From a virus: DNA of 20,166 nucleotides. Position 1 is the first letter of the stretch; each line of letters starts with the position of its first letter. The notes below the pieces were generated by a model, which saw only the letters and a list, made by a program, of their open reading frames with translations, was not told the origin of the DNA and searched no databases. A program made the translations under genes and the position numbers. Below, piece by piece: positions 1,639-18,782 of this stretch. The DNA lies in IMG/VR virus record IMGVR_UViG_3300035698_002123, positions 1-20,166 of that record, one strand, 5' to 3'.

Positions 1639-2907
1639 TTAGAACGTGATTGCTGTAGTCACATCAAGCTCATCCAGAGAACCAGCAGAGCTGATAGTAG
1701 GATGTACTGGAAGAGCAATCTCGTTGGCTTTGATAGCTACGTTTCTAAGAACGCCGATACCTAGACCATCTTCATAGATTGCGAACGCATAGCGCTCTTT
1801 CAGTTTAACTTTGATGATGTCTGCATTCATATCTTCCCATTGGTCCATACTTACATCTTCGTCTACAACGAGAGCACCAAGGTTGGCACTATCGAAGATA
1901 AGGAGGTCAGTAGTTTCTCTTTCTTCATCGTAAGGTACGAATGGAGATACGAGAACTCTTAATGGATAAGGGAAGTAGTTCGGAATAGTAGCAGCGCTCT
2001 GCAGATTCTGGTCGATCTCATTTGCATTTGAAGGATCAGAAGGAGTTTCGCCAGCAGCGTTATTTCCAGGAGTGAACCGACCATAACCACCAGGGATACC
2101 CTGTTTGCTTTGATTAGATGCATTCCATGGACGACTTTGCTGTGCCATATTACGAGGCTGGAACCACTGGCCGTTACCAGTATTCTTCACGATTGTTTGA
2201 AGCAGCGGATCTGCCATCCACATAGACCAAGCTAGTGGGTGTAACAGAATCGTATCAGGTGTGTAACCCTGCATCATAATGTGAGAATATGCTTTCAGCA
2301 AGTCTTCCATTCTACAAGAACCGTTACCTGCACCAGTCATAGAACGACCTGTGCATGTACCATAAACAGACTCAAGAGGACTAATGTTGTCGAAAAGCGT
2401 TACGCCCATCGCACTAATGTAATCCATACCTTTTTTCTCTTTATGACGGTCCAGACCTCTACGGCCTGCACGAACGTGCATGTTCATTACATCATACTGA
2501 GAATACTTTTGCATTTCTTCAGTGATCTTGAACATGATACCTGTTTTACCAACGTTGATTGTGATGCTACCAGGAGCAACGTTTAAGCTCTGTTCTGGAT
2601 AGCTTTGGCCTTCTGCAAGGTCAAATGCCGTCATAGCACCCATAGCTGGGAATGTAATTCTTGCAGCTGGGGTATAAGCGATGCGGTCTAACAAAGATGG
2701 AACGATAAGCATCGGCTCAACCGGCTCACGGACAATCTCTTCGATGACCTTAGGCATCCAAATATTAGCAGTAGGTGTTGCAAGGAGATCCTTGAACTCT
2801 ACTTTGCTCTGTGTTGGCACGTTGAAACCATTATTGTGCCATGTGTCACGGAACAGCTCATACTTAGTGCCAAAGGCTTTATGCGGGTCAAATACTCTAG
2901 TACCCAT
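1639..2907 (-). CDS. Major capsid protein (HK97 fold)
   Basis: This 422-aa protein is the main shell subunit. It has an ATG start with an ideal AAGGAGG 8 bases upstream. Its length, and its position directly after the protease/scaffold and the 457-aa capsid-associated genes, match tailed-phage capsid proteins. The N-terminal region is followed by a PSLLDRIAYTPAARITFP strand and an AEGQSYPEQSL segment typical of the E-loop and spine-helix entry (about residues 70-125). A long helix with GRRGLDRHKEKKGMDYI follows. A middle stretch of about residues 235-300, rich in Gly, Asn, Gln and Pro, may be a surface insertion. The C-terminal half has LRVLVSPFVPYDEERETTDLLIFDSANLGALVV, resembling the A/P-domain beta core. 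The fold assignment rests on pattern and context, and I am fairly sure of it. Confidence 0.88.
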   Translation of the reverse strand: MGTRVFDPHKAFGTKYELFRDTWHNNGFNVPTQSKVEFKDLLATPTANIWMPKVIEEIVREPVEPMLIVPSLLDRIAYTPAARITFPAMGAMTAFDLAEGQSYPEQSLNVAPGSITINVGKTGIMFKITEEMQKYSQYDVMNMHVRAGRRGLDRHKEKKGMDYISAMGVTLFDNISPLESVYGTCTGRSMTGAGNGSCRMEDLLKAYSHIMMQGYTPDTILLHPLAWSMWMADPLLQTIVKNTGNGQWFQPRNMAQQSRPWNASNQSKQGIPGGYGRFTPGNNAAGETPSDPSNANEIDQNLQSAATIPNYFPYPLRVLVSPFVPYDEERETTDLLIFDSANLGALVVDEDVSMDQWEDMNADIIKVKLKERYAFAIYEDGLGIGVLRNVAIKANEIALPVHPTISSAGSLDELDVTTAITF

Positions 2908-4304: not shown

Positions 4305-6422
4305 TTAGTTTCCTCCTAAATTATCAGCAGTTTCTTTGTCTGCTGAAAGGCTTTCAAATGTTATTTCGTCACCAAATAAACCCAATGATTTCATTGTACC
4401 ATAAATTTGTCTAGCCGTGCCAATTTGGTCTTGTGCTAAACAATCTTTGATGTTTTCAATTGCTTCTAGAGCTGGCTCTGTGAGTCCAGTTGGAAGTTGT
4501 GAGTTATCCCCACCAGTATCAATAGTAGGATCAGCAACATCGCCGTCTGGCTTTCTAGCCATACCGTCATTAATCTTTAATGCGGCGGCAGTAATGTCGA
4601 ATGAATCCATGATAGCTGCTTCCTCTTTAGCTACATCAGTATCTTTTAAGGATGCTGTTGCGGTCTCAAGAGTATCATACTTCTGAGTTAAAACCCCAAC
4701 TAAGGCAACTTTTTCTACCTTGGCTGTGTTCAACTGTGCTCCCAGTTGGATATGTTCGTCCACCTGAGACTCATAATCTGCATGTGCAATCCTCAGTTCG
4801 CTACGGAGAACCGTAACAATATTTTCAGATTTAGCCAGTAGATCACGAGATTCTCCAAGTTCTTTCTTAGCAGTTTCTGTCTCTGCTTCCTTAATAGCAC
4901 AATCGCTACAAGGTTTTACAAGAACTTGTTTACGGTCAATCAATTCAAGTTCAACAGAATGCCAAAGAGTTCTTAAGTCTTCAATCTCCATGTCTTTTAC
5001 TTTAATTGGTTGTACTTCAACGTCGCCAATATTTGGCTCGATGACTTCTTTTCCTTCTTTGATGTCAGCACCAAAAGCTTTTGCTTTAATACTAATACGA
5101 GCAAGGATGCTAGCTTTATTACCAGGTCCTTCGTACTTGTCAGCAAATCTCTTAGCAGCTGTTGCGTGAGCAGCATCTGGGACAGGGAAAGTTTTATCAG
5201 GACCACAGAAAGCTGATTCGGGAAGCTTAAGTAGACTGTCTTCAGAAATCTTAGCATCTGCTGCTGTGAATTCTTCGTCAGTCAAAAGTTTCTCGTCTTT
5301 CATAGCCTGAAGTTCTTTCCTCATACCATCGCAAATTTCTTCAGCCTTAACATCTTGACCTTTTGTACTTAGGTCATGAATAGCATAAAGAACTGCGTCC
5401 TCTTCTTTGATTTTAGCTTCTTCAACGTCGGCAATGAATGTATCAGTGGCAATCACTTTAGCTGTTCCTTGTGCTAAAGCATAAACCTCTTCATCTTTCA
5501 TGTCTTTGTGAATCTTCTTAATCATGTCAAAGAATTTTTGCTCTGCATCAGAAAGAGTGACTTCTTTTCCATTAATTAACATATGGTCCTCCTCTACAGA
5601 ATCTTTGAATTGGAAAGTTGAATGTCCAGACTCGACTGAGTCCTTAGACATATAGACTATTTCGTTTTTATCTTTATCTTTAGTATCTACGATTTTGATA
5701 CTAGCATGCTGATCTCCTTTAAAGTTGATCAGACTAGCTTCTTTATAAAAGTGTTCGCCAGGAATGAGTTGACAGGTGAACTTCATGTCCCCTTCTTCTT
5801 CTTTACTATCGGCGAAATACATTTCTCCCATCTCATGCTCACACCATCCATCTGCAACAATGTTTGTACCGCAGATAGAACAGTAGACCTCATTCGGGGA
5901 ATCGAAGTTAGTTGAGATGGCATCAAATAAGCCATCCTCAAGTTGCTTCACAGATTTCTCATCAGAGACTTCGGCTTGTAGTCTAATATACCCAAGCCCT
6001 TTATATCCTTCTCTATCAAGTACTCCAGCCCTCTTAAGGTTCCTCATGGCACGAAGATTATCTTTCATTGAAGATGTTTCGCTTGTCAATGTAAGAACAT
6101 CAGGATTGCCAACTAGGTCTTGAGGGATAGTATCGACATACTCTCTGTAAAGAGCTTTGCCAATAGGATCAGAATGAGAGTCATGATGCTTTAAGATCTT
6201 CATCGGTGATTCTCCAAGTTCGATAGTCGGAGTACCAGCTCTCATTCTTGAGGGGATATAGAATCTAGGACTATTAAGAGGCACACCAGCGTGGGTAGCC
6301 TCCATATCGATAATAAGTTTTCTCGTTCCACCACTTGTATAGTAGTCCTTAAACTCTTGGAGTTTCTCTTTAGTTGGACTGTCTACTGAATAGTAGTCTT
6401 GAAATGTAACTTTAATTGCCAT
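4305..6422 (-). CDS. Prohead protease fused to a scaffold-like domain
   Basis: This 705-aa protein combines two functions of procapsid assembly. Residues 50-200 resemble herpesvirus-fold prohead proteases: KILKHHDSHSDPIGKA holds a candidate catalytic His (79, 80 or 83), and a second block at FDAISTNFDS holds candidate nucleophile Ser170. Directly after it is a small cysteine/histidine knuckle, CSIC(181-184) and CEH(194-196), probably binding zinc. Residues from about 270 to the end are highly charged and helical, with coiled-coil segments near 490-620, typical of scaffolding proteins that are degraded or expelled. The gene precedes the capsid genes, as expected. AAGGAG lies 12 bases before the ATG, a rather long spacing. 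The protease family is recognised from motifs; the exact catalytic residues are inferred. Confidence 0.75.
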   Translation of the reverse strand: MAIKVTFQDYYSVDSPTKEKLQEFKDYYTSGGTRKLIIDMEATHAGVPLNSPRFYIPSRMRAGTPTIELGESPMKILKHHDSHSDPIGKALYREYVDTIPQDLVGNPDVLTLTSETSSMKDNLRAMRNLKRAGVLDREGYKGLGYIRLQAEVSDEKSVKQLEDGLFDAISTNFDSPNEVYCSICGTNIVADGWCEHEMGEMYFADSKEEEGDMKFTCQLIPGEHFYKEASLINFKGDQHASIKIVDTKDKDKNEIVYMSKDSVESGHSTFQFKDSVEEDHMLINGKEVTLSDAEQKFFDMIKKIHKDMKDEEVYALAQGTAKVIATDTFIADVEEAKIKEEDAVLYAIHDLSTKGQDVKAEEICDGMRKELQAMKDEKLLTDEEFTAADAKISEDSLLKLPESAFCGPDKTFPVPDAAHATAAKRFADKYEGPGNKASILARISIKAKAFGADIKEGKEVIEPNIGDVEVQPIKVKDMEIEDLRTLWHSVELELIDRKQVLVKPCSDCAIKEAETETAKKELGESRDLLAKSENIVTVLRSELRIAHADYESQVDEHIQLGAQLNTAKVEKVALVGVLTQKYDTLETATASLKDTDVAKEEAAIMDSFDITAAALKINDGMARKPDGDVADPTIDTGGDNSQLPTGLTEPALEAIENIKDCLAQDQIGTARQIYGTMKSLGLFGDEITFESLSADKETADNLGGN

Positions 6423-6438
6423 TGTTTTTGAACACTCC

Positions 6439-8658
6439 TTATTCCGCTGTTAATTCCATCGTACATGTGCAGTTTGGATGCAACGGAGGCAGCTCATCAT
6501 AGATTATAACATCGGATTCTTTATAAACCAAAATCTGTGAATCACATATCTTACAAGGTGTCGTGTCATGTCTTACTGATTTTATCTCTGCGAAACCATT
6601 AGGACGATATCCACTAGCCTTGCCATAATTGTAAGCTCTCATTATTTCGCTATTGTCAATCATAACCGTTCTATGTCTTAAAGCATCGAAGACAAGACCT
6701 GTAACAACTGCATCTTCTGCACGTAAGTTATTAGTTTTGATAGTGTTTTTGTCGATTCTGTTCAAGAGTTGACCCATTAGTTTGCTAATGTATTTATCAA
6801 TATGATCATGCACTTTACCGTCTGCTTTGTCAATTCTGACATCCCAGATTTGTGCATTGGCATCAGCAACTCCAATACGATACGCTTTTTGTGCCAAAGA
6901 AACAAGTTTGTCCTTAGCTCGGGCAAAACTCAGCTGTGCTAGAAGCTTCATCTCTCCCTTCCTGTAACCTTTAATTCTGACCTTTATCATCATATCTGTA
7001 CGCAACTCATCATAGATACTCTGTAATGGAGGGCTCTGCCTGAACAATACATCAAGATTCTGGACTTTGTTACGGTCGCCGAAGGAATCCTTACTAAGCT
7101 TTGCAGACGCTCTAGTGCCATATTGATTCTGTGGCTGGTTCCTATTTTGAGTAGTCTTATTCTTAGAAGTACTAGATGCAACAGCATTGTTCTTCTTTGC
7201 TGTAGACTTGGCTACTGTCTGAGCAACATCAGTTCTAGGCTCATCAATAGCCTGGATAATCACTTTATCTCTATCAATAAGACCATAATACGAAGCAGCC
7301 CAGTCTCCATCACCTTTAGTAAACATTTTAGCCTTGCTATTAGCTGTAGGCCAACCTGAACCAATGAAAGGCTCTCTGCCCATACCTTGACGCATCTCTG
7401 AGTGTGTAAGGGCGTTCTGTAAGAACAACTGATTATAATGATTCTCTTTAGCCATACGAGATTCAAAGTCGATCTCTTTAAACTTAAGCTCAACCATGTT
7501 TTGTTCATCTAGCATTGTAGCATCAGAAAAGGTGCTCTCAAGAAGAAGCTCATAGATTACATAGGCTTGTATCTGAGAACCGAATTCTTTTTGGTCAGCT
7601 TTAGTGTCATCAATAAGGTTCCTAGACATTGTGTCAGCAGTGCTTCTGTTAGCAGTTCCGCCTTCACCCATATCTACTGAGCTGTTACCCAGACCAGTAA
7701 AGATACGTTGTTTGAAAAGCTCGATAACTCTATCTACTGCAATTGGGGAGCCAGCAGCTTGTAATGCTTTTACATTATGACGTTCCGGAGTAACCCAACA
7801 ACCATCAGAAGGCATCATAGATACCTTCATCTGAATCTCGTCAACTTCAGTACTGCCATCTGCATATACAGCAGCAGGGCTTTGTTCTGTACCTACTTTA
7901 TAATGAAAGAGAGGGAAAAGGTGTTGATATACAAGCAGTTCTACGTTCTCTTCAATACGACGAAGAGCACGAATGTCATCTTTAACTGACACTAGAGCTG
8001 GAGTACCGACAGCATATCCCTCACGCTTATCGAAATAGAAATGGATAACATCCTCTGGAGCGAACTCCTTGGCTGTCTTCCCATACACTTCTTGTTGATA
8101 TTTCTTTACCTTGCCATACTCGTCACGTTTGAAACGGACTGTTTCCGCTGGCAGGAGGAAATACCCCGCAACTGGATTAAGAGATTTACCATTGGCATCA
8201 AGTCTCTTCTTACCACCAGAAGCTTCAGTTTTACGAACCTTTACCCAGAAGGCATTACTTGTCCTCACTAGAGAGGAGATAGTTTGGCTCATTAGGATCT
8301 TAAACGGCATGTTTGTCGCAAGTTCCATCTGCTTCATACGTCTTTTGATGTATTGAACTCTTTCAGGTTTAGGACCAACGAACTCATAGCCTTCTTTAAT
8401 GAAGAGGTTCTTTTTGTTCCTAAATGCTCTACGAACATATGACTCTGTGTCTAAAATCCTACCACATTCAGCAAGATCCCATTCAGGTTGTTCCCATCTC
8501 AATTGAGGTACACGAGAACGCCCGAGGTTACTAGTATATGCTTTTGTAGGAGCTGGGATATGTCTAGGGACCATACCCTTCTTGTCCTTAGGAAATCCAT
8601 CATTCTTTGGCATTTGCTTAAGCTCTAGATTGGCGCTTCTCTTAGTAATAGTAGCCAT
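6439..8658 (-). CDS. Portal protein with C-terminal MuF-like domain
   Basis: This 739-aa protein would form the dodecameric DNA entry vertex. Residues about 50-470 have the portal pattern: an AFRNKKNLFIKEGYEF helix, VAGYFLLPAETVRFKRDEYG, EDVIHFYFDKREGYAVGTPAL (the wing/stem entry common to portals), then a long helical region with LFKQRIFTGLGNSS. Residues about 490-540 are a low-complexity Ser/Thr/Asn/Gln linker. The C-terminus carries a MuF-type minor head domain ending in C702-x2-C705, then H727-P-N-C730-T-C732, the classical putative zinc site. Ordinary portals are about 450-550 aa, so this is a natural fusion of two genes usually separate. It overlaps the preceding gene by TAATG and has GAGGGG 9 bases upstream. 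Confidence 0.88.
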   Translation of the reverse strand: MATITKRSANLELKQMPKNDGFPKDKKGMVPRHIPAPTKAYTSNLGRSRVPQLRWEQPEWDLAECGRILDTESYVRRAFRNKKNLFIKEGYEFVGPKPERVQYIKRRMKQMELATNMPFKILMSQTISSLVRTSNAFWVKVRKTEASGGKKRLDANGKSLNPVAGYFLLPAETVRFKRDEYGKVKKYQQEVYGKTAKEFAPEDVIHFYFDKREGYAVGTPALVSVKDDIRALRRIEENVELLVYQHLFPLFHYKVGTEQSPAAVYADGSTEVDEIQMKVSMMPSDGCWVTPERHNVKALQAAGSPIAVDRVIELFKQRIFTGLGNSSVDMGEGGTANRSTADTMSRNLIDDTKADQKEFGSQIQAYVIYELLLESTFSDATMLDEQNMVELKFKEIDFESRMAKENHYNQLFLQNALTHSEMRQGMGREPFIGSGWPTANSKAKMFTKGDGDWAASYYGLIDRDKVIIQAIDEPRTDVAQTVAKSTAKKNNAVASSTSKNKTTQNRNQPQNQYGTRASAKLSKDSFGDRNKVQNLDVLFRQSPPLQSIYDELRTDMMIKVRIKGYRKGEMKLLAQLSFARAKDKLVSLAQKAYRIGVADANAQIWDVRIDKADGKVHDHIDKYISKLMGQLLNRIDKNTIKTNNLRAEDAVVTGLVFDALRHRTVMIDNSEIMRAYNYGKASGYRPNGFAEIKSVRHDTTPCKICDSQILVYKESDVIIYDELPPLHPNCTCTMELTAE

Positions 8659-11928: not shown

Positions 11929-13872
11929 CTAGAATGTAGACCTGCTAGGTCTGTTCCTCTGTACTGTACCTCTAGATCGTTTTCTTTGCAACCATCCAGC
12001 TTTCTCAATAGGCTCTCTGTCTTCATCCCAACCTCTTCTATTTGTTTTCATTGTATGAATTCCAGAATCTACCTTACCTGGCATTACACCAAAAATAGAG
12101 CTATTAGTCAACCCTGCATCCATTCTTCTATCTTCTGGACGATTAGACTTGTTCTCAAGCTGAGAATCGGCTCGTGGTGTCTGTTGCTTTACATTTCTAG
12201 GATCTGGCGCCACACCTACAGATGTTACCACACGTATAGTATGTAAGTCATCAAACTCAAGGTGGAAGGCAACGATTGCCAAGTTAAGAGCATCTAGCCT
12301 GTGATCACCAATCTTAGCATCTTCCATACCATATACAGGTGACTTTGTAGGAGTATATCTCTCAATGATATAGTTTCTTAGCTGTTTCTCTAATATACTA
12401 TCAGAAGAAGAGATATGAATCCTTCCTTGTTCAAACATACGAATAGAAGCATTAATCATGAAGGCCTTAGCTGGAGACTTGATGTCTTGAGCAGTGACAG
12501 GGTCTTTCGTCGGAATAGAAGAACCAGAGTCATATTTCTTCATCATATCTAATAACCTAGCTGTATCCCTATCTCCACCTGGACGTCTCTCCTCATAAGC
12601 TGTCTTCCGAAGAACTTCATAGTTCGTAGAACCATTACCAGCATCAATGTAGATATAGGCAGGTTTCCATTTCTTGTTTAATTCTATAACCTTAGCGATA
12701 CCAGACAGCTGAGTAAACTCTACACCAGTAACCAGCACAGTCTCTACTACCTTATATGCCCCAGTTGCCATGTTATATCCAAGAACAGCTAACTCAGTAC
12801 CGTGTTTCTCATTCCAGTCAATACCAATACAATACTTCCAAGTTGGATGCTGATGCATGTCTGAGTAGTCATATACCTGTAAAGCCTTGTCAATATAGTG
12901 TGGTTTATACACACCAGACTCTGATGAACCCCATTCAGCTAAGAACTCGTGAATCCAATCCTCTTCTGTATACTGTGGCTTATCATTCTCTACTGCTCTC
13001 CAGTGAGGCAGAACTTTATAGGAATAGTGGAATTGGACGAAGGCAGGATCTTCTTCACAGGCTTTATAGAACGGTGTCCTGAATCCTGAGGGAGTAGAGA
13101 ATCCAACTAGAGCGGTATTTGGTGTTGTCTGTAGAATTGGAAGCACAGCACCTGTGATTGCCTTCTCATCAACATAGTCCATCTCTTCAAGGTACAATCT
13201 GTCAGCATCCTGCCCACGAATACCAACTGAAGAACCTTTACCTTTGGCGCCAGCCGCAAATCCTCTGAGACGAGAACCATTAGAGAGTTCAATCTCATAC
13301 CAAGGAGCACTAACATCTCTGGTTACCATATTACCCAAAGCAGGATTAGAACGTATAAATTCTCTAACTCTGTTAAAGATTTCCTCTGCATGTGTCTTCT
13401 GAGGGCCGGCAACTACAACTTTAATATTATTTGTCGTAAATAAGTAATAACAGATCTCTACACAAACAGCATCTGTCTTACCAGCACGACGAGAGATCCT
13501 TAGCACCTTACGTCTTGATGTGCATCGAAGAACGTCACTCTGATACCATCTAGCAACCCATGGCTCACCATTAGGGAGTAAAAGGTTAGCAGCTGCCCAG
13601 GTTACAATATCCATAGCCTCTAAAGCAGCATTACGAGATTCTTCTGTAGGGAACTGTGACAATGCAGACTCATCAATGAAATCCTTAGGAATACCAGTAC
13701 AAGGAACCATAAATTTGCTCCCTATGTTCTTCCCACTCTCATCAACATGTTTACCGTATCTCTTTAACTGTTTACGTACACACTTATGACATTGTTCACG
13801 AACATCATCCAAATCAAATGGAAGTTGAAGTTCACGTAGGTCTGCAAGAGTGTCTACAGCGATATCATTCAT
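11929..13872 (-). CDS. terL: Terminase large subunit
   Basis: This 647-aa packaging motor pumps DNA through the portal using ATP and cuts concatemers. The N-terminal ATPase domain has a Walker A-type RISRRAGKT (R125-T133), a Walker B-like LYLEE (226-230), where Glu229 replaces the usual Asp, and a coupling GFST motif (257-260). The C-terminal RNase H-like nuclease shows the expected acidic triad: Asp352 in CIGIDWNEKHG, Asp410 in IYIDAGNGS, and Asp527 in IGDHRLDALN. Residues 541-647 are a polar, basic tail rich in Arg and Lys. The N-terminal 110 residues include C28-x2-C31. It starts at ATG 8 bases after the preceding gene, with AAGGA about 6 bases upstream. The sequence is complete, with every motif present. 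Confidence 0.95.
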   Translation of the reverse strand: MNDIAVDTLADLRELQLPFDLDDVREQCHKCVRKQLKRYGKHVDESGKNIGSKFMVPCTGIPKDFIDESALSQFPTEESRNAALEAMDIVTWAAANLLLPNGEPWVARWYQSDVLRCTSRRKVLRISRRAGKTDAVCVEICYYLFTTNNIKVVVAGPQKTHAEEIFNRVREFIRSNPALGNMVTRDVSAPWYEIELSNGSRLRGFAAGAKGKGSSVGIRGQDADRLYLEEMDYVDEKAITGAVLPILQTTPNTALVGFSTPSGFRTPFYKACEEDPAFVQFHYSYKVLPHWRAVENDKPQYTEEDWIHEFLAEWGSSESGVYKPHYIDKALQVYDYSDMHQHPTWKYCIGIDWNEKHGTELAVLGYNMATGAYKVVETVLVTGVEFTQLSGIAKVIELNKKWKPAYIYIDAGNGSTNYEVLRKTAYEERRPGGDRDTARLLDMMKKYDSGSSIPTKDPVTAQDIKSPAKAFMINASIRMFEQGRIHISSSDSILEKQLRNYIIERYTPTKSPVYGMEDAKIGDHRLDALNLAIVAFHLEFDDLHTIRVVTSVGVAPDPRNVKQQTPRADSQLENKSNRPEDRRMDAGLTNSSIFGVMPGKVDSGIHTMKTNRRGWDEDREPIEKAGWLQRKRSRGTVQRNRPSRSTF

Positions 13873-13880
13873 TTAAATCC

Positions 13881-14636
13881 TTACTTGTGGACGAAGACTG
13901 CTTCTTGTCCAAGGAGTGATCGAGAAGACATCTGACCACGGTTCATTGCAGCAAGTGACTGCTGTCTCATTGTATGTGCTCTTTGTGTATTGAAAGCCGC
14001 ACTCTGGTTGCCCCAGTCTAAAGAACGACGTTTCTGCTGAGCAGCTACCATTCTATCTGGTACACGGGTAGCCGCATCTGCTAACTCTCCAGCAGCAAGA
14101 GATCCACCCATAGCACCAACAGCGCCACCAACAAAAGCACCAAGAGGCCCCCCAACAACTGCACCGAGACCAGCACCTATCTTAGCTCCTGCTATCCATC
14201 CAATATCAGCAGCAACACCAGTTGTAAGTGATCTCGCTAGTTCATGAGGCTCATCACTGTCCGCATAGTACATAGAGCCACCGATAATAGCAGCAGGCCC
14301 TAATAGACTACCAGCGACTCCTAGACCTCTACCAAACTTACCTAGCTTAGTAGGAGCACCCGCAGCATTAATGGCTTTCTTTATATTCTTATTCTTTGGA
14401 TGCATCTTCTGAAGATTTCTCATATTCTTCATGTACTGGGGGCTACCAATCTCGTTCTTACCTCTCCATGGGGCTTTCATCGCTTCTGAAGCAGATGGGG
14501 CAAAAGCAACAGAGGCGAACCCGCCTTGTGCAAAGTTACTTGCAAAACGTTGCCTTGCCCAAGTGTGGCCTTTCCATCGAGCCTTTTGAGCGAAGCCTGG
14601 ATTCTCTACAGGATTATTTTGAAACCAACTTGTCAT
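13881..14636 (-). CDS. Glycine-zipper protein, possible ejected or membrane-active
   Basis: This 251-aa protein has an ATG start with a weak AAGG upstream and a gap of 9 bases after the preceding gene. The N-terminal 90 residues are basic and aromatic (WKGHTWARQRF, then RNLQKMHPKNKNIKK). Residues 103-124 are a Gly/Ala/Leu hydrophobic segment, and residues 140-183 contain repeated GxxxG spacing (IGAGLGAVVGG, then GAFVGGAVGAMGG). Such segments form tightly packed membrane or coiled structures. The C-terminal 65 residues are polar and Arg/Gln-rich. The glycine-zipper pattern and the packaging context suggest an internal virion protein delivered with DNA, or a membrane-interacting pilot protein. 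Neither role is demonstrated by the sequence. Confidence 0.75.
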   Translation of the reverse strand: MTSWFQNNPVENPGFAQKARWKGHTWARQRFASNFAQGGFASVAFAPSASEAMKAPWRGKNEIGSPQYMKNMRNLQKMHPKNKNIKKAINAAGAPTKLGKFGRGLGVAGSLLGPAAIIGGSMYYADSDEPHELARSLTTGVAADIGWIAGAKIGAGLGAVVGGPLGAFVGGAVGAMGGSLAAGELADAATRVPDRMVAAQQKRRSLDWGNQSAAFNTQRAHTMRQQSLAAMNRGQMSSRSLLGQEAVFVHK

Positions 14637-14645
14637 TAGTTAGCC

Positions 14646-15212
14646 TTATCTTGGTGAGTTAGATTCGAGCATTGTAGAACCAATGAATCCAGCAGAGGCT
14701 GCAGCTGTCGATCCTATGACGCCAGTTGCATAGCTTCTATTAGAATGTAGAGCTACTCCACCAACTCCAGCTCCGAACTGTTTAGGAAAACGTTTACTGA
14801 GTCCACGTTGCATCTTAGCCATACCCATACGTCCAGCACGACTGCCAAGAAGCATACCTACGCCAGCACCAGCTGCCATACCACCAAGCTGACTCTGATC
14901 GCCATCCATTACACTAGCATACATACTTCCGCCAAGTCCACCAAGAGCACCTCTTACAGCACCTTTCCCCATACCTCTTGAGAATCCCGTACCGAGGATG
15001 CCATATTGTGATTTCCTATCTTTGCCTATGGCACTCATCCCCATTTGCCCATATTTACCAGCATATCCCATGCCACTCTTAGCATAACCACTTACAGCAC
15101 CCATGCCAGCTTGGCCGTATTTTCCAGCAGCACTATAACCAGCTTTCGCATAGCCACCAGCTTTCCCAGCCATGCCGCCAAACATACTTCCCATCTTATT
15201 AAAAAGTCCCAT
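14646..15212 (-). CDS. Glycine/alanine-rich repeat protein
   Basis: This 188-aa protein starts at ATG with AGGAGA 8 bases upstream, after the longest gap in the packaging region. It begins with an amphipathic MGLFNKMGSMFGG. Residues 20-63 hold two imperfect 22-residue repeats of a GYAK-AG-KYGQ-GM type. From about residue 78 it alternates basic residues with Gly-rich segments (GAVRGALGGLGG, GGMAAGAGVGMLLGSRAG, GVIGSTAAASAGFIGS). It resembles the next gene's glycine-zipper style. The composition, and the pairing with the next gene, suggest a virion-internal protein that may insert in membranes. There is no signal peptide. I recognise no family and assign no function. Confidence 0.72.
   Translation of the reverse strand: MGLFNKMGSMFGGMAGKAGGYAKAGYSAAGKYGQAGMGAVSGYAKSGMGYAGKYGQMGMSAIGKDRKSQYGILGTGFSRGMGKGAVRGALGGLGGSMYASVMDGDQSQLGGMAAGAGVGMLLGSRAGRMGMAKMQRGLSKRFPKQFGAGVGGVALHSNRSYATGVIGSTAAASAGFIGSTMLESNSPR
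15024..15155 (-). repeat. Two 22-residue tandem repeats
   Basis: Residues 20-41 and 42-63 of the 188-aa protein align without gaps, with 14 of 22 positions identical. The shared core is GYAK, then AGKYGQ, then GM. It looks like an internal duplication of a 66-base unit. Confidence 0.8.
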
Positions 15213-15247: not shown

Positions 15248-15276
15248 AGTATAGTACTTTATGCAAGCCTTGTCGA
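15248..15276 (-). promoter_or_regulatory. Candidate sigma70-type promoter
   Basis: On the minus strand, TCGACA (15276-15271) and TATACT (15253-15248) match the -35 and -10 consensus at 5 of 6 bases each, with an ideal 17-base spacer. It overlaps the end of the kinase-like gene and sits in the 46-base gap before the 188-aa gene, where a start would give a short leader to its SD. It could start a separate transcript for the glycine-rich genes, the terminase and the genes below. Chance matches are possible in AT-rich DNA. Confidence 0.5.
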
Positions 15277-16701
15277 GCCAAAACTAGTATGGCCTCTGCC
15301 AGCACCATTAGCTGACCTCAAACCAACACCAACTGAAGCTTTAGACCTTTCCTTAAATTTCTTGTTTCTTCTAACGGTCTGTTCTAATGCTTTTGCCTTG
15401 GGCTTATTGGGAGCTGTTTTCGGAAGCATAGAGTTCATGTCTCCCCAATCATCAAAAGATTTGTAAGTAGGTATATCAACTTTCTTACCTCCTGCATGCT
15501 TAAAAACTTCACCTACCGATGCTCTTAGTGTGTTCTCGTCTAAGCCCATTAATGCATTTATTCCTAAGTGATCTGATTTCTCTTTCGATCTTTTATAGAA
15601 AGCATGTATCCTTTTCTTATCTGCCATCTTTGCATATTCTTTTAATGGAACAGAACGACCAAGAGATTTCATTCCTATTTCTTCTATAATAGCTCTGTTC
15701 GATCCTAAAAGAGGAGTATCATCCTGAAGTCTATTTGCAAGACCCCAGTCAATGATTGCTGGCTCAAATTCTCCAGTGCTAGTCTTTACTCTAACTAAGT
15801 TATCTCCATGTAAATCTGTATGAGTTATGTCTCTTGTGTGTGTCTTCTCTAAGAAAGAAGATAGTTTCCCATATTCTTCATCTGACATTGCTTTCTTTTG
15901 GAAATCTTCAACGATATTAAATTTTTCCATGAATACAGCATTGTCAGATGATCCATACAAACTTGGAGAGATGTTCTCTTCTATATTCCCTAACCTTCCA
16001 AGAATCTCTTTTTCTTTAGGCATAAACTCTTTCAAGGTCATTTCTCTAAGATTACCTGCATCTTCCTTCGACATAGCCCCTCCACCTTCTAAAAAGATAT
16101 CCTCTGTAGACCTAGCTTGCTTAGAGACAAATTCAAACTTATGAGTTTTACCAGCATATTTAAATTCACTTTTATATAAGAAAGAATTTGCTGTAACTCC
16201 AAACCCTAAAAGTTTTCCTTCTCCTTGTGCTCCTTTAGTAAGAGCTTGTCTGAATTCAGGTAAATTTCTTAATTTTGAGAAAGATTCACTACCTTCTCCA
16301 AATATCTCTGTGGCAATCTTTCTCATAGGATCCCAACGAGAAGCAAAGTCTTTCTTAAATTCTGAGTGTTGTTCACGACTACTAGCAGCCATACCGTTGT
16401 TAGGCATGCCTGAGAACTTCCCTCTGCCCTGTATACCGCCACCATACATGTTGGTAGCCTTACGTTGCATAAGGCCAGAAATGTTCTTCCTGGCGCCAGC
16501 ACGCTGGCCATGGTGATATTCTTTTAATTCATCGTAAGCTATTTCAGTAGCATTAGAACTGGCTACCTTCTCTAACAGGGCACCTTGCCAGCCAGAACCG
16601 AACTCTGAGAACTCACGAATAGCCTGAGTTCCTAGTCCTTCAGAACCAGGATGGATACCATCAAGGAATGCAGGAGTCATAAATTTACGTGGATTGGCCA
16701 C
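15259..16701 (-). CDS. Protein-kinase-like domain protein
   Basis: This 480-aa protein has a GTG start at 16701, with AGGTGA 6 bases upstream. The next Met at residue 8 lacks an SD. Residues about 160-330 show kinase or phosphotransferase landmarks: a Gly-rich loop LGFGVTANSFLYK (165-177), a candidate ATP lysine at K194, catalytic loop HTDLHGDN (294-301) with Asp296 and Asn301, and IIDWGLA (316-322) with metal-binding Asp318 replacing DFG by DWG. The N-terminal 155 residues are polar, Gly/Asn-rich and unrecognised, and the C-terminal 60 are basic and Gly-rich. All key residues are present, so it may be active. It lies next to the terminase genes, an unusual place. An aminoglycoside-phosphotransferase-like or choline-kinase-like protein is an alternative. 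The target is unknown. Confidence 0.7.
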   Translation of the reverse strand: MANPRKFMTPAFLDGIHPGSEGLGTQAIREFSEFGSGWQGALLEKVASSNATEIAYDELKEYHHGQRAGARKNISGLMQRKATNMYGGGIQGRGKFSGMPNNGMAASSREQHSEFKKDFASRWDPMRKIATEIFGEGSESFSKLRNLPEFRQALTKGAQGEGKLLGFGVTANSFLYKSEFKYAGKTHKFEFVSKQARSTEDIFLEGGGAMSKEDAGNLREMTLKEFMPKEKEILGRLGNIEENISPSLYGSSDNAVFMEKFNIVEDFQKKAMSDEEYGKLSSFLEKTHTRDITHTDLHGDNLVRVKTSTGEFEPAIIDWGLANRLQDDTPLLGSNRAIIEEIGMKSLGRSVPLKEYAKMADKKRIHAFYKRSKEKSDHLGINALMGLDENTLRASVGEVFKHAGGKKVDIPTYKSFDDWGDMNSMLPKTAPNKPKAKALEQTVRRNKKFKERSKASVGVGLRSANGAGRGHTSFGSTRLA

Positions 16702-16707
16702 ACTGAA

Positions 16708-16713
16708 TCACCT
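16708..16713 (-). promoter_or_regulatory. Ribosome binding site supporting a GTG start
   Basis: AGGTGA on the minus strand lies 6 bases before the GTG at 16701 and overlaps the TAG of the preceding gene. It favours the GTG over the ATG at residue 8, which lacks an SD. Confidence 0.55.
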
Positions 16714-18418
16714 AATCTTGGATTTCCCAGTCAGCTTGTACGAAATCACTTGAGGCAACATCTTTAGCGTCTTCCTTGATTTCCTCAAGAGAGCCTCCAT
16801 GTTGTATCTTCTTGGCAGTAGTAAGAGCAGTCTTAATGTCAGCCCAGTGCTGTCCAATATCTCCTTCTTCTCTCTGCTTAAGCATTGCAGCCTTCTTTGC
16901 TTTTTCTTTTCTTGTTGCGGAGAAAGATTCGAGCACACGCATACGTTCTGCATGAGCTTTGCTCTTAGCCTCTAGAAGAGGATGAAGTGATGATACTTCT
17001 TGCTGACTCTCACCGTTGTCAATAATATCAACCTTAATGAGATTCCAGCCATCTTCGTCCTTGCTCAGGCCGATATTAGCTCTATAATCTATCATATCAC
17101 ATTCAACCAGCTTATTGATGAGGATCATCTCTGTTCTCTCATCTGGCTGTACTCCAATATCCTCAATGTAACTTTGAGTCCATGCAGCTATTAATGTAGC
17201 CTCTATTGGACAATTATGAGTAGCTATGTTGTTAGCAAAATATGTCTTATGTTCATTCTTTACATCTAGAGCATAAACCAAACCACTATACTTCTGTCTA
17301 GTTACTTTTATTGAATTCCATATTACTTTTGAGGTATCTGAAGTATCTTTTATATAAAGAGGAACCTCCATGATCCCTGAAATCAGATTACATGCTCTAA
17401 TGAACATAGTATTCCTAGCATAAAGTTTCACTTGTCCAATTCTCTTATCAGAATTATCTTTTTCCCAAATAGGATACTCTAAACGGAGGCCAATACTTCC
17501 GAGCTTCTCTTTATAAAAATCTTCTGAATTAGATAAAGAATCATGATATGCATTTATCTGTTCCTTAGTCGCCCATTTATACAAACCATCACATTTAGAT
17601 TTAATACGATCTAGGGAATCTGCAAATGATACTTTGCTCGTTTGCCATTTTATAGAAAAAGATTCTTCGGCAAGAAGAGCATCTGTATTAAGATCGTAGA
17701 TTCCTAATACCCACATTGCATCAGCTTCTTCTTTTACTCCTCTATAGGTGAATGGCAACCTGTATTTGTCCCCCTCTGGACTGGTAGTAATTGCACTGAT
17801 CCTAGATTTACCAATCCTCCAATGAGAACCTTTCTTCATAAGATAGACACAGAATTTATTAATCGCTTTCTCATTAAATCTGGCAACGCAGATATGACCT
17901 AGAGTTGCTTGGTAATAATTAAATCCAGCATTAATATCCACAAGTTCACCAACTACTGCTTTAGAAGATACTGTAAAGTCATATCCATTTCTCCAGTTAG
18001 ACATAATACGATGTTTCTTCCTATGAAAAGAGACTACCTTATGTTCTTCTGGATCGAGATCTTCTATCTTTATGTCTCTATCTCCGGCTACTTTGATATA
18101 TGTACCAGGAGGATGACATTGTTCTGCAATAGGCCAGTTCTTCTTGTCATGAAATGGGCATTGCTTAACTGGACATCTATCACCGCCGCAAAGCATTGGA
18201 ATCATTGCTGATGTACCAACTTTCATGCGAACGATGTGATTCCTAAACTTCAATGCTTGTTCAGGTGTCATGACCTTCTCAAGGTTAGCATTATGTTCTG
18301 CTGGCAACGCCAAGAACTTAAAGAAGTCCGTAGGGGTTACCTTTCCAATATGATCCAATTGTGTACCATTCAGCTTCAGTAATTCAGCCTTTGGCTTTCC
18401 AGAGCCTTCTCCACCCAT
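16712..18418 (-). CDS. Intein-containing protein, possible small terminase subunit
   Basis: This 568-residue precursor would splice to a 266-residue product. The ATG at 18418 is preferred (AAGGA 11 bases upstream) because the GTG at 18427 is only 2 bases after it. Residues 1-100 precede the intein and include C77, C82 and C87 in a CGGDRCPVKQCPFH cluster. Residues 403-568 follow it and begin with Cys403 in CPIEATLIAAW. The extein C-terminus has a helical, basic segment with LHPLLEAKSKAHAERM and SATRKEKAKK, reminiscent of P27-type small terminases, and a polar tail. Gene order upstream of the large terminase is compatible, but three genes intervene. The splicing elements are strong; the extein function is a weak inference. 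Small terminase or another DNA-binding or metal-binding phage protein are both possible. Confidence 0.8.
   Translation of the reverse strand: MGGEGSGKPKAELLKLNGTQLDHIGKVTPTDFFKFLALPAEHNANLEKVMTPEQALKFRNHIVRMKVGTSAMIPMLCGGDRCPVKQCPFHDKKNWPIAEQCHPPGTYIKVAGDRDIKIEDLDPEEHKVVSFHRKKHRIMSNWRNGYDFTVSSKAVVGELVDINAGFNYYQATLGHICVARFNEKAINKFCVYLMKKGSHWRIGKSRISAITTSPEGDKYRLPFTYRGVKEEADAMWVLGIYDLNTDALLAEESFSIKWQTSKVSFADSLDRIKSKCDGLYKWATKEQINAYHDSLSNSEDFYKEKLGSIGLRLEYPIWEKDNSDKRIGQVKLYARNTMFIRACNLISGIMEVPLYIKDTSDTSKVIWNSIKVTRQKYSGLVYALDVKNEHKTYFANNIATHNCPIEATLIAAWTQSYIEDIGVQPDERTEMILINKLVECDMIDYRANIGLSKDEDGWNLIKVDIIDNGESQQEVSSLHPLLEAKSKAHAERMRVLESFSATRKEKAKKAAMLKQREEGDIGQHWADIKTALTTAKKIQHGGSLEEIKEDAKDVASSDFVQADWEIQD
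17213..18118 (-). mobile_element. Intein with GIY-YIG-like endonuclease region
   Basis: This is a 302-residue in-frame protein intron from Cys101 to Asn402. Block A starts CHPPGTYIKV. Block B has T172-x2-H175 in ATLGHICVARF. Block F is VYALDVKNEHKTYFANNI, and block G ends with ATHN before Cys403, so the full set for protein splicing is present. Between blocks B and F, residues 189-205 read FCVYLMKKGSHWRIGKS, matching the GIY-YIG pattern with Y192 and RIG (201-203). Downstream WVLGIYDLNTDALLAEE gives a candidate catalytic Glu (251/252) at the usual distance. I find no LAGLIDADG or HNH motif. The insertion is more AT-rich than the flanking gene. Confidence 0.85.
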
Positions 18419-18419
18419 G

Positions 18420-18782
18420 TTATTCACTATCCTTAAAGTTAGAATCTATCTTAACGACTTTGGTAGGTTTGGCGCCAGCCATCTCTTCCGGAGTGGCGAA
18501 ACCAATAACATAGGCTTCAGCATCAAAGCATCTAGCGAACAGATACTGAGGCAAGTCATATAAGTCTCCATTGCCTTCAACTGTGACCCAACCATTGTGG
18601 TTATCACAGGAGATAACACGATAAGCGGTGTTAGGTACAAAGCACTTGATCTCTTGCTGGCAAACGGTAATAGCACCAGCAGGAATCTTGAGTTCGCACT
18701 TTGAATTGTTAGGATGCACTACCCACCAACTCTCGCCGTTTTTAAGTGGGTGTTCCAATGGATCTATCCTATAATGTTTCAT
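18420..18782 (-). CDS. Small protein, unknown function
   Basis: This 120-aa protein starts at ATG in a TAATG overlap with the preceding stop, with AAGGAG 7 bases upstream. It ends 1 base before the intein gene. It contains SWWVVHPNNSKCELKIPAG, EIKCFVPNTAYRVIS, and GWVTVEGNGDLYDLP, which suggests a small beta-rich fold. The C-terminus (YVIGFATPEEMAGAKPTKVV) is helical to coil. There is no signal peptide or membrane segment. No family is recognised; tight spacing puts it in the same transcript as the GroES-like and intein genes. Confidence 0.7.
   Translation of the reverse strand: MKHYRIDPLEHPLKNGESWWVVHPNNSKCELKIPAGAITVCQQEIKCFVPNTAYRVISCDNHNGWVTVEGNGDLYDLPQYLFARCFDAEAYVIGFATPEEMAGAKPTKVVKIDSNFKDSE

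Follow-up and report, generated by a model that had tools for sequence, protein, structure and literature searches.

The gene at positions 15259–16701 encodes a real kinase domain, as confirmed by structure prediction, and this kinase is one of the interchangeable payloads in a family of modular proteins whose modules are delimited by a short motif, a point that an earlier sequence-only reading of this DNA had missed. Genome context and a likeness to polyvalent proteins suggest that these proteins are probably late, virion-carried and DNA-delivered effectors of large uncultivated tailed phages, with the gene studied here as their shortest form. The window, 20,166 bases in length, is the whole virus record and the full extent of genome sequence analysed.

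The open reading frame of the kinase gene was uninterrupted and intact. The large terminase, portal and major capsid protein genes were confirmed by Pfam and PHROG searches, and all lie on the same strand as the kinase gene. Thus, the placement of this gene within a capsid and packaging cluster, in a late-gene position, was borne out. The features of the window are summarized in Table 1.

Table 1 Features of the window and the evidence for each.
Feature	Position	Strand	Evidence
Major capsid protein	1639..2907	−	Pfam 1.9e-12, PHROG 2.8e-20
Candidate prohead protease/scaffold	4305..6422	−	Profile match to KLEB27-3 gp014 "prohead protease", 5e-11
Portal protein	6439..8658	−	PHROG 2e-45; Mu-F-like C-terminus weak, E 0.099
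Large terminase	11929..13872	−	PHROG 7.3e-35
Gly-rich/Gly-zipper protein, conserved neighbour	13881..14636	−	Gene order; weak tape-measure-like PHROG matches
Gly-rich protein between modular gene and terminase	14646..15212	−	ORF, gene order in relatives
Single-payload modular gene (kinase), 480 aa, GTG start	15259..16701	−	ORF, homologous slot in relatives, AF2 model
Conserved C-terminal tail of modular protein, RRNKKFKERSKASVGVGLRSANGAGRGHTSFGS	15262..15396	−	Tail alignment across family
Kinase domain, residues 121–405	15487..16341	−	AF2 pLDDT ~90; Rio2 Z 14.5; profile vs PDB 5e-12
DWG metal-binding motif, residues 318–320 (D318)	15742..15750	−	Sequence, family alignment
Catalytic loop HTDLHGDN, residues 294–301 (D296, N301)	15799..15822	−	Sequence, family alignment
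Inter-module motif copy 2, degenerate, residues 96–124, ...REQHSEFKKDFASRWD, directly N-terminal to kinase	16330..16416	−	Alignment with relatives
Inter-module motif copy 1, residues 12–40, FLDGIHPGSEGLGTQAIREFSEFGSGWQG, predicted disordered	16582..16668	−	Motif HMM; pLDDT <50
Shine-Dalgarno AGGTGA, 6 nt before GTG of kinase gene	16708..16713	−	Sequence
Upstream partner gene, "MGGxGSG" family, four invariant Cys, intein-interrupted	16712..18427	−	Gene order in 38 loci
Intein in upstream partner gene, 302 aa, Cys1...HN/C	17213..18118	−	Pfam Intein_splicing E 0.0068; boundaries

The catalytic motifs HxDLHxxN and DWG were intact in the window protein, as had been claimed, and the numbering of D296 and D318 was correct. 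In an alignment of 22 kinase modules of the family, K194, E230, D296, D318 and G320 were invariant and N301 was conserved in more than 90%. This conservation far exceeds chance, and the most distant of the 22 modules are only 19–25% identical to the window kinase. Such invariance across divergent modules indicates that the predicted kinase activity is under selection. The claim of an intact glycine loop held only in part, as G-x-G is present in the sequence LGFGVTANS but the third glycine is missing. The loop is variable in relatives, and G168 is conserved in more than 90% of the family. A glycine-rich loop, GxGxxG, is found in typical protein kinases and is relaxed in atypical ones, and hence is not strictly defining.

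The window protein alone gave weak Pfam matches (Pkinase, E 0.026; ABC1, 0.17), and the profile of its 22 relatives matched solved kinases in the PDB profiles at E 5e-12. The AF2 model showed a bilobal kinase fold with pLDDT of about 90 over residues 121–405. Rio2 was the top structural match (Z 14.5), ULK and Aurora kinases gave Z 12–13, and each of the 50 structural matches listed was a kinase or a kinase-containing complex. The sequence-only reading had named a structure prediction with fold search and motif conservation in homologues as checks; the former yielded a kinase fold, and the latter showed catalytic residues kept across the 22 family members. The domain resembles RIO/ABC1/Bud32-like short kinases in its best fold matches and weak family matches, but it shares only about 20% sequence identity with them and is embedded in a phage modular protein. 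The C-lobe looks short: the distance from DFG to the next motif was 38–98 residues in eight of ten kinase modules and 255 and 370 residues in the other two, and the window model retains helices up to residue 405. The kinase clade of polyvalent proteins has a His-Asp insert and has lost the C-terminal subdomain (Iyer et al. 2017, PMC5512222), whereas H-T-D is contiguous in the window kinase, which has no insert between the catalytic His and Asp.

The window protein alone detected no relative in GenBank phages, nor did its own peptides in IMG/VR; the relatives were reached solely via the terminase and then via the motif. The terminase search identified eight IMG/VR contigs, whose terminases are 58–70% identical to that of the window and in which gene order is kept. 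Where the sequence extends far enough, the same slot in these contigs is occupied by a larger, different protein that shares an element of about 30–35 aa and the C-terminal tail with the window protein. A search with this element detected 58 loci, mostly new, in uncultivated tailed phages, and dereplication left 51 proteins of 455–2418 aa.

The modules of these 51 proteins comprise a kinase (in 29), a DEDDh exonuclease (23), SNase (16) and a Cas4-like nuclease (9), together with smaller groups of GNAT-like, HExxE/HExxH metallopeptidase-like and ART-like modules. Pfam detected SNase (E down to 6e-15), APH/ABC1/Pkinase and RNase_H_2 in relatives. The exonuclease module matched PDB profiles at 5e-11, the Cas4-like module gave 0.018 with a PDB profile and 4e-4 with PHROG Cas4, and the GNAT-like module gave 0.02. 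The ART, peptidase and ATP-grasp labels are sequence readings, and no structural support was found for ATP-grasp or for a second ART-like group. Module order is variable, with SNase placed before or after the kinase. The window protein has one recognised enzyme domain, and most relatives hold two or more activities, such as the exonuclease, SNase and kinase of locus L006.

Payloads turned over while the carrier was kept. Between L020 and L036, the terminases are 86%, the tails 81% and the kinases 31% identical, and between the window and L002 the corresponding values are 70%, 50% and 25%. Therefore, payloads change faster than the carrier. The L008 protein has no kinase, although its terminase is 66–75% identical to those of kinase-bearing relatives. 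The basic C-terminal tail is conserved in both kinase and non-kinase versions.

The motif spans about 35 aa with the short consensus (K/R)DDxYNTIEGLxHxG(L/M)AxxxRxxxT(D/E)FGSG(W/Y). The 122 anchored copies gave the fuller form D-D-x-Y-N-T-I-E-G-L-x-H-x-G-(L/M/I)-A-x-x-x-R-(K/R)-x-x-T-(D/E)-F-G-S-G-(W/Y/F); position −12 is Gly in 87% of copies, and position −2 is Thr/Ser in 92%. In total, 132 copies were found in 51 distinct proteins. None of the 132 fell inside a kinase, SNase or exonuclease envelope, compared with 27 expected and a minimum of 13 in 2000 circular shifts; the motif sits at module boundaries. The core [ST][ED]FGSG occurred 85 times in 58 kaa of modular genes and was absent from 284 kaa of other ORFs of the same loci; the motif model was trained on the modular family, so that counts within the family are partly circular, whereas the zero count outside it is not. 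Pfam and PHROG searches gave no match to the motif, GTDB genomes contained none, and its strings were not found in the open-access literature searched. In L008, the copies at residues 299 and 721 are 97% identical in DNA and their flanks are duplicated, which points to a recent duplication; modules may be gained in this way.

In nearly all records searched whole, the motif was confined to one gene, and one record had two such genes. A general capsid-targeting signal common to many head proteins was rejected because of this restriction and because the core occurred in no other ORF of the loci. The residue preceding FGSG was Asp in 61% and Glu in 18%, and a classical xxE prohead-protease site is accordingly unsupported; the Glu at P1 of T4/phiKZ-type prohead-protease substrates is not the rule before FGSG, and cleavage elsewhere in the protein is possible. 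The motif may be a loading signal, a docking site, a processing site or a flexible linker.

The modular gene occupies a conserved locus. In 38 loci the partner gene was found upstream of it, usually overlapping it or separated by no more than about 60 bp; in five, the distance is 0.6–1.7 kb. The terminase gene follows 1.2–4.2 kb downstream wherever the contig reaches. The upstream gene had been taken for a small terminase, which we could not support: 28 members of the family gave no PHROG match, and no PDB profile matched. The model of one partner protein (L003:5226–6044) had the phi29 connector as its best match, which was weak (Z 8.7), and the absence of a small-terminase fold match is not proof against that identity. 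The window intein is inserted at one of the four invariant cysteines of the partner gene, and L063 apparently carries an intein in the same gene. In L009 (397–948), and similarly in L027 and L036, a small ORF resembling the terminase ATPase lies just upstream of the partner gene.

Among cultured phages, the closest are MTATph1, KLEB27-3 and ME3, distant relatives that keep the partner gene and the terminase with no modular gene in the slot. Therefore, the modular gene is dispensable for this virion type. KLEB27-3 gp006 is a short protein with a similar GHH tail at its end.

A second locus was found among tail genes. In L071, L085, L087, L092 and L094, a motif-bearing gene carries exonuclease, SNase or Cas4-like modules ahead of a region of 500–1600 aa; no module was recognised in that of L071. 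Where the flanks could be read, this gene follows the tail sheath and tube genes, which is the tape-measure position. A gene of about 1640 aa occupies this position; PHROGs gave it no name, and the tape-measure assignment is by position only. One record of 204 kb has both the head-cluster gene and the tail-locus gene, and a 215-kb record has only the latter. Both the head and the tail motif loci belong to virion assembly.

We propose that synthesis of the modular protein would accompany that of the head proteins and that the motif, the tail or both would direct it into the particle. It would then enter the host together with the DNA, perhaps after cleavage into individual enzymes, and as infection starts the kinase would phosphorylate targets in the host or, less probably, in the virion. 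Within this proposal, the motif could be a proteolytic processing site, used by the prohead protease or by the protein's own peptidase module to free separate enzymes, instead of serving for loading or docking or simply linking modules. We regard this as possible but doubtful. The position of the motif at module borders, its predicted disorder in the window protein and the candidate prohead protease encoded nearby agree with cutting, and prohead proteases cut jumbo-phage ejection proteins (PMC5694885), but known prohead proteases cut after Glu (PMC5694885), the minority residue before FGSG, and no other head protein of these loci has the core.

An unlikely alternative to an ejected effector is a structural regulator that is retained in the head or prohead, where its kinase modifies virion proteins as particles assemble or DNA is packaged. 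The position of the gene between the partner gene and the terminase and the conserved tail of its product would fit such a role, but relatives replace or lack the kinase, as in L008, and carry nuclease, peptidase-like, GNAT-like and ART-like modules that no single assembly step needs. Very unlikely is an intracellular kinase for take-over or anti-defence that lies among late genes by chance: phage kinases such as that of T7 act inside the host after synthesis (PMC5512222) and weak similarity to phage kinases is detectable, but the locus is conserved across dozens of phages, motif and tail also occur in non-kinase versions, and the motif recurs among the tail genes. A virion-carried, DNA-delivered modular effector is the most economical explanation.

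Such an effector has published counterparts. The polyvalent proteins of phages and conjugative elements are large, multidomain and predicted to be injected with DNA, and late-gene location is a published argument for virion inclusion of those of phages (Iyer et al. 2017, PMC5512222). The modular family likewise mixes kinase, ART, GNAT, peptidase and other activities near late and virion genes, but it differs in its defined repeated motif between modules, its conserved tail and its one fixed locus. At least two activities define a polyvalent protein; most relatives have them, whereas the window protein has a single enzyme domain. The proposed effector also resembles T4 Alt and the internal proteins that bear a capsid targeting sequence, both in being a head-carried, DNA-delivered, host-modifying enzyme and in the idea of a short targeting sequence (PMC5512222, PMC5694885). 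However, the T4 signals are short and N-terminal, belong to separate genes and are cut after Glu, whereas the motif recurs within the protein and is restricted to one or two genes. Temperate phages encode MuF polymorphic toxins (PMC5576092), which likewise join a conserved carrier to enzymatic parts that can be exchanged and belong to a virion gene cluster, but they have one C-terminal toxin, in contrast to several internal modules here; no immunity gene was noticed, and the modular proteins scanned gave no Pfam Mu-F match. Thus, proteins of the polyvalent kind are already published, whereas the databases and literature searched contained no motif-delimited carrier with one fixed locus in the head cluster and a second among the tail genes.

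A dedicated modular cargo system, in which the FGSG motif, together with the tail, serves as a novel signal for loading or processing and almost any enzyme can be plugged into one late gene and the tape-measure gene for virion delivery, is a tentative reading to which we give slightly less than even credence. One odd late kinase may in this way provide a handle on how large phages might arm their particles. The defined motif, tail and locus would predict delivered proteins, and the exchangeable payload enzymes already form a list to draw on. Should the motif act in loading or cutting, it would represent a natural modular route for carrying enzymes into bacteria, and kinase-bearing phages might be able to affect the host ahead of any phage gene expression.

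Several minor observations were made in the relatives. Two terminase relatives lie in MAG contigs labelled Fermentibacteria and Krumholzibacteriia, which are possibly binning errors. L096, from a MAG contig labelled Fermentibacteria, contains the terminase end of the locus and the 3' end of the modular gene with a degenerate motif and the tail; its label may be a host hint or a binning error. A stand-alone ORF with a GIY-YIG-like start lies among structural genes in L024 (12538–13269) and is likely a homing endonuclease. The terminases of L006 (1022 aa) and L020 (1062 aa) and the portals of L024 (1174 aa) and L025 (1085 aa) are about 350–420 aa longer than those of relatives, and these packaging genes probably contain more inteins.
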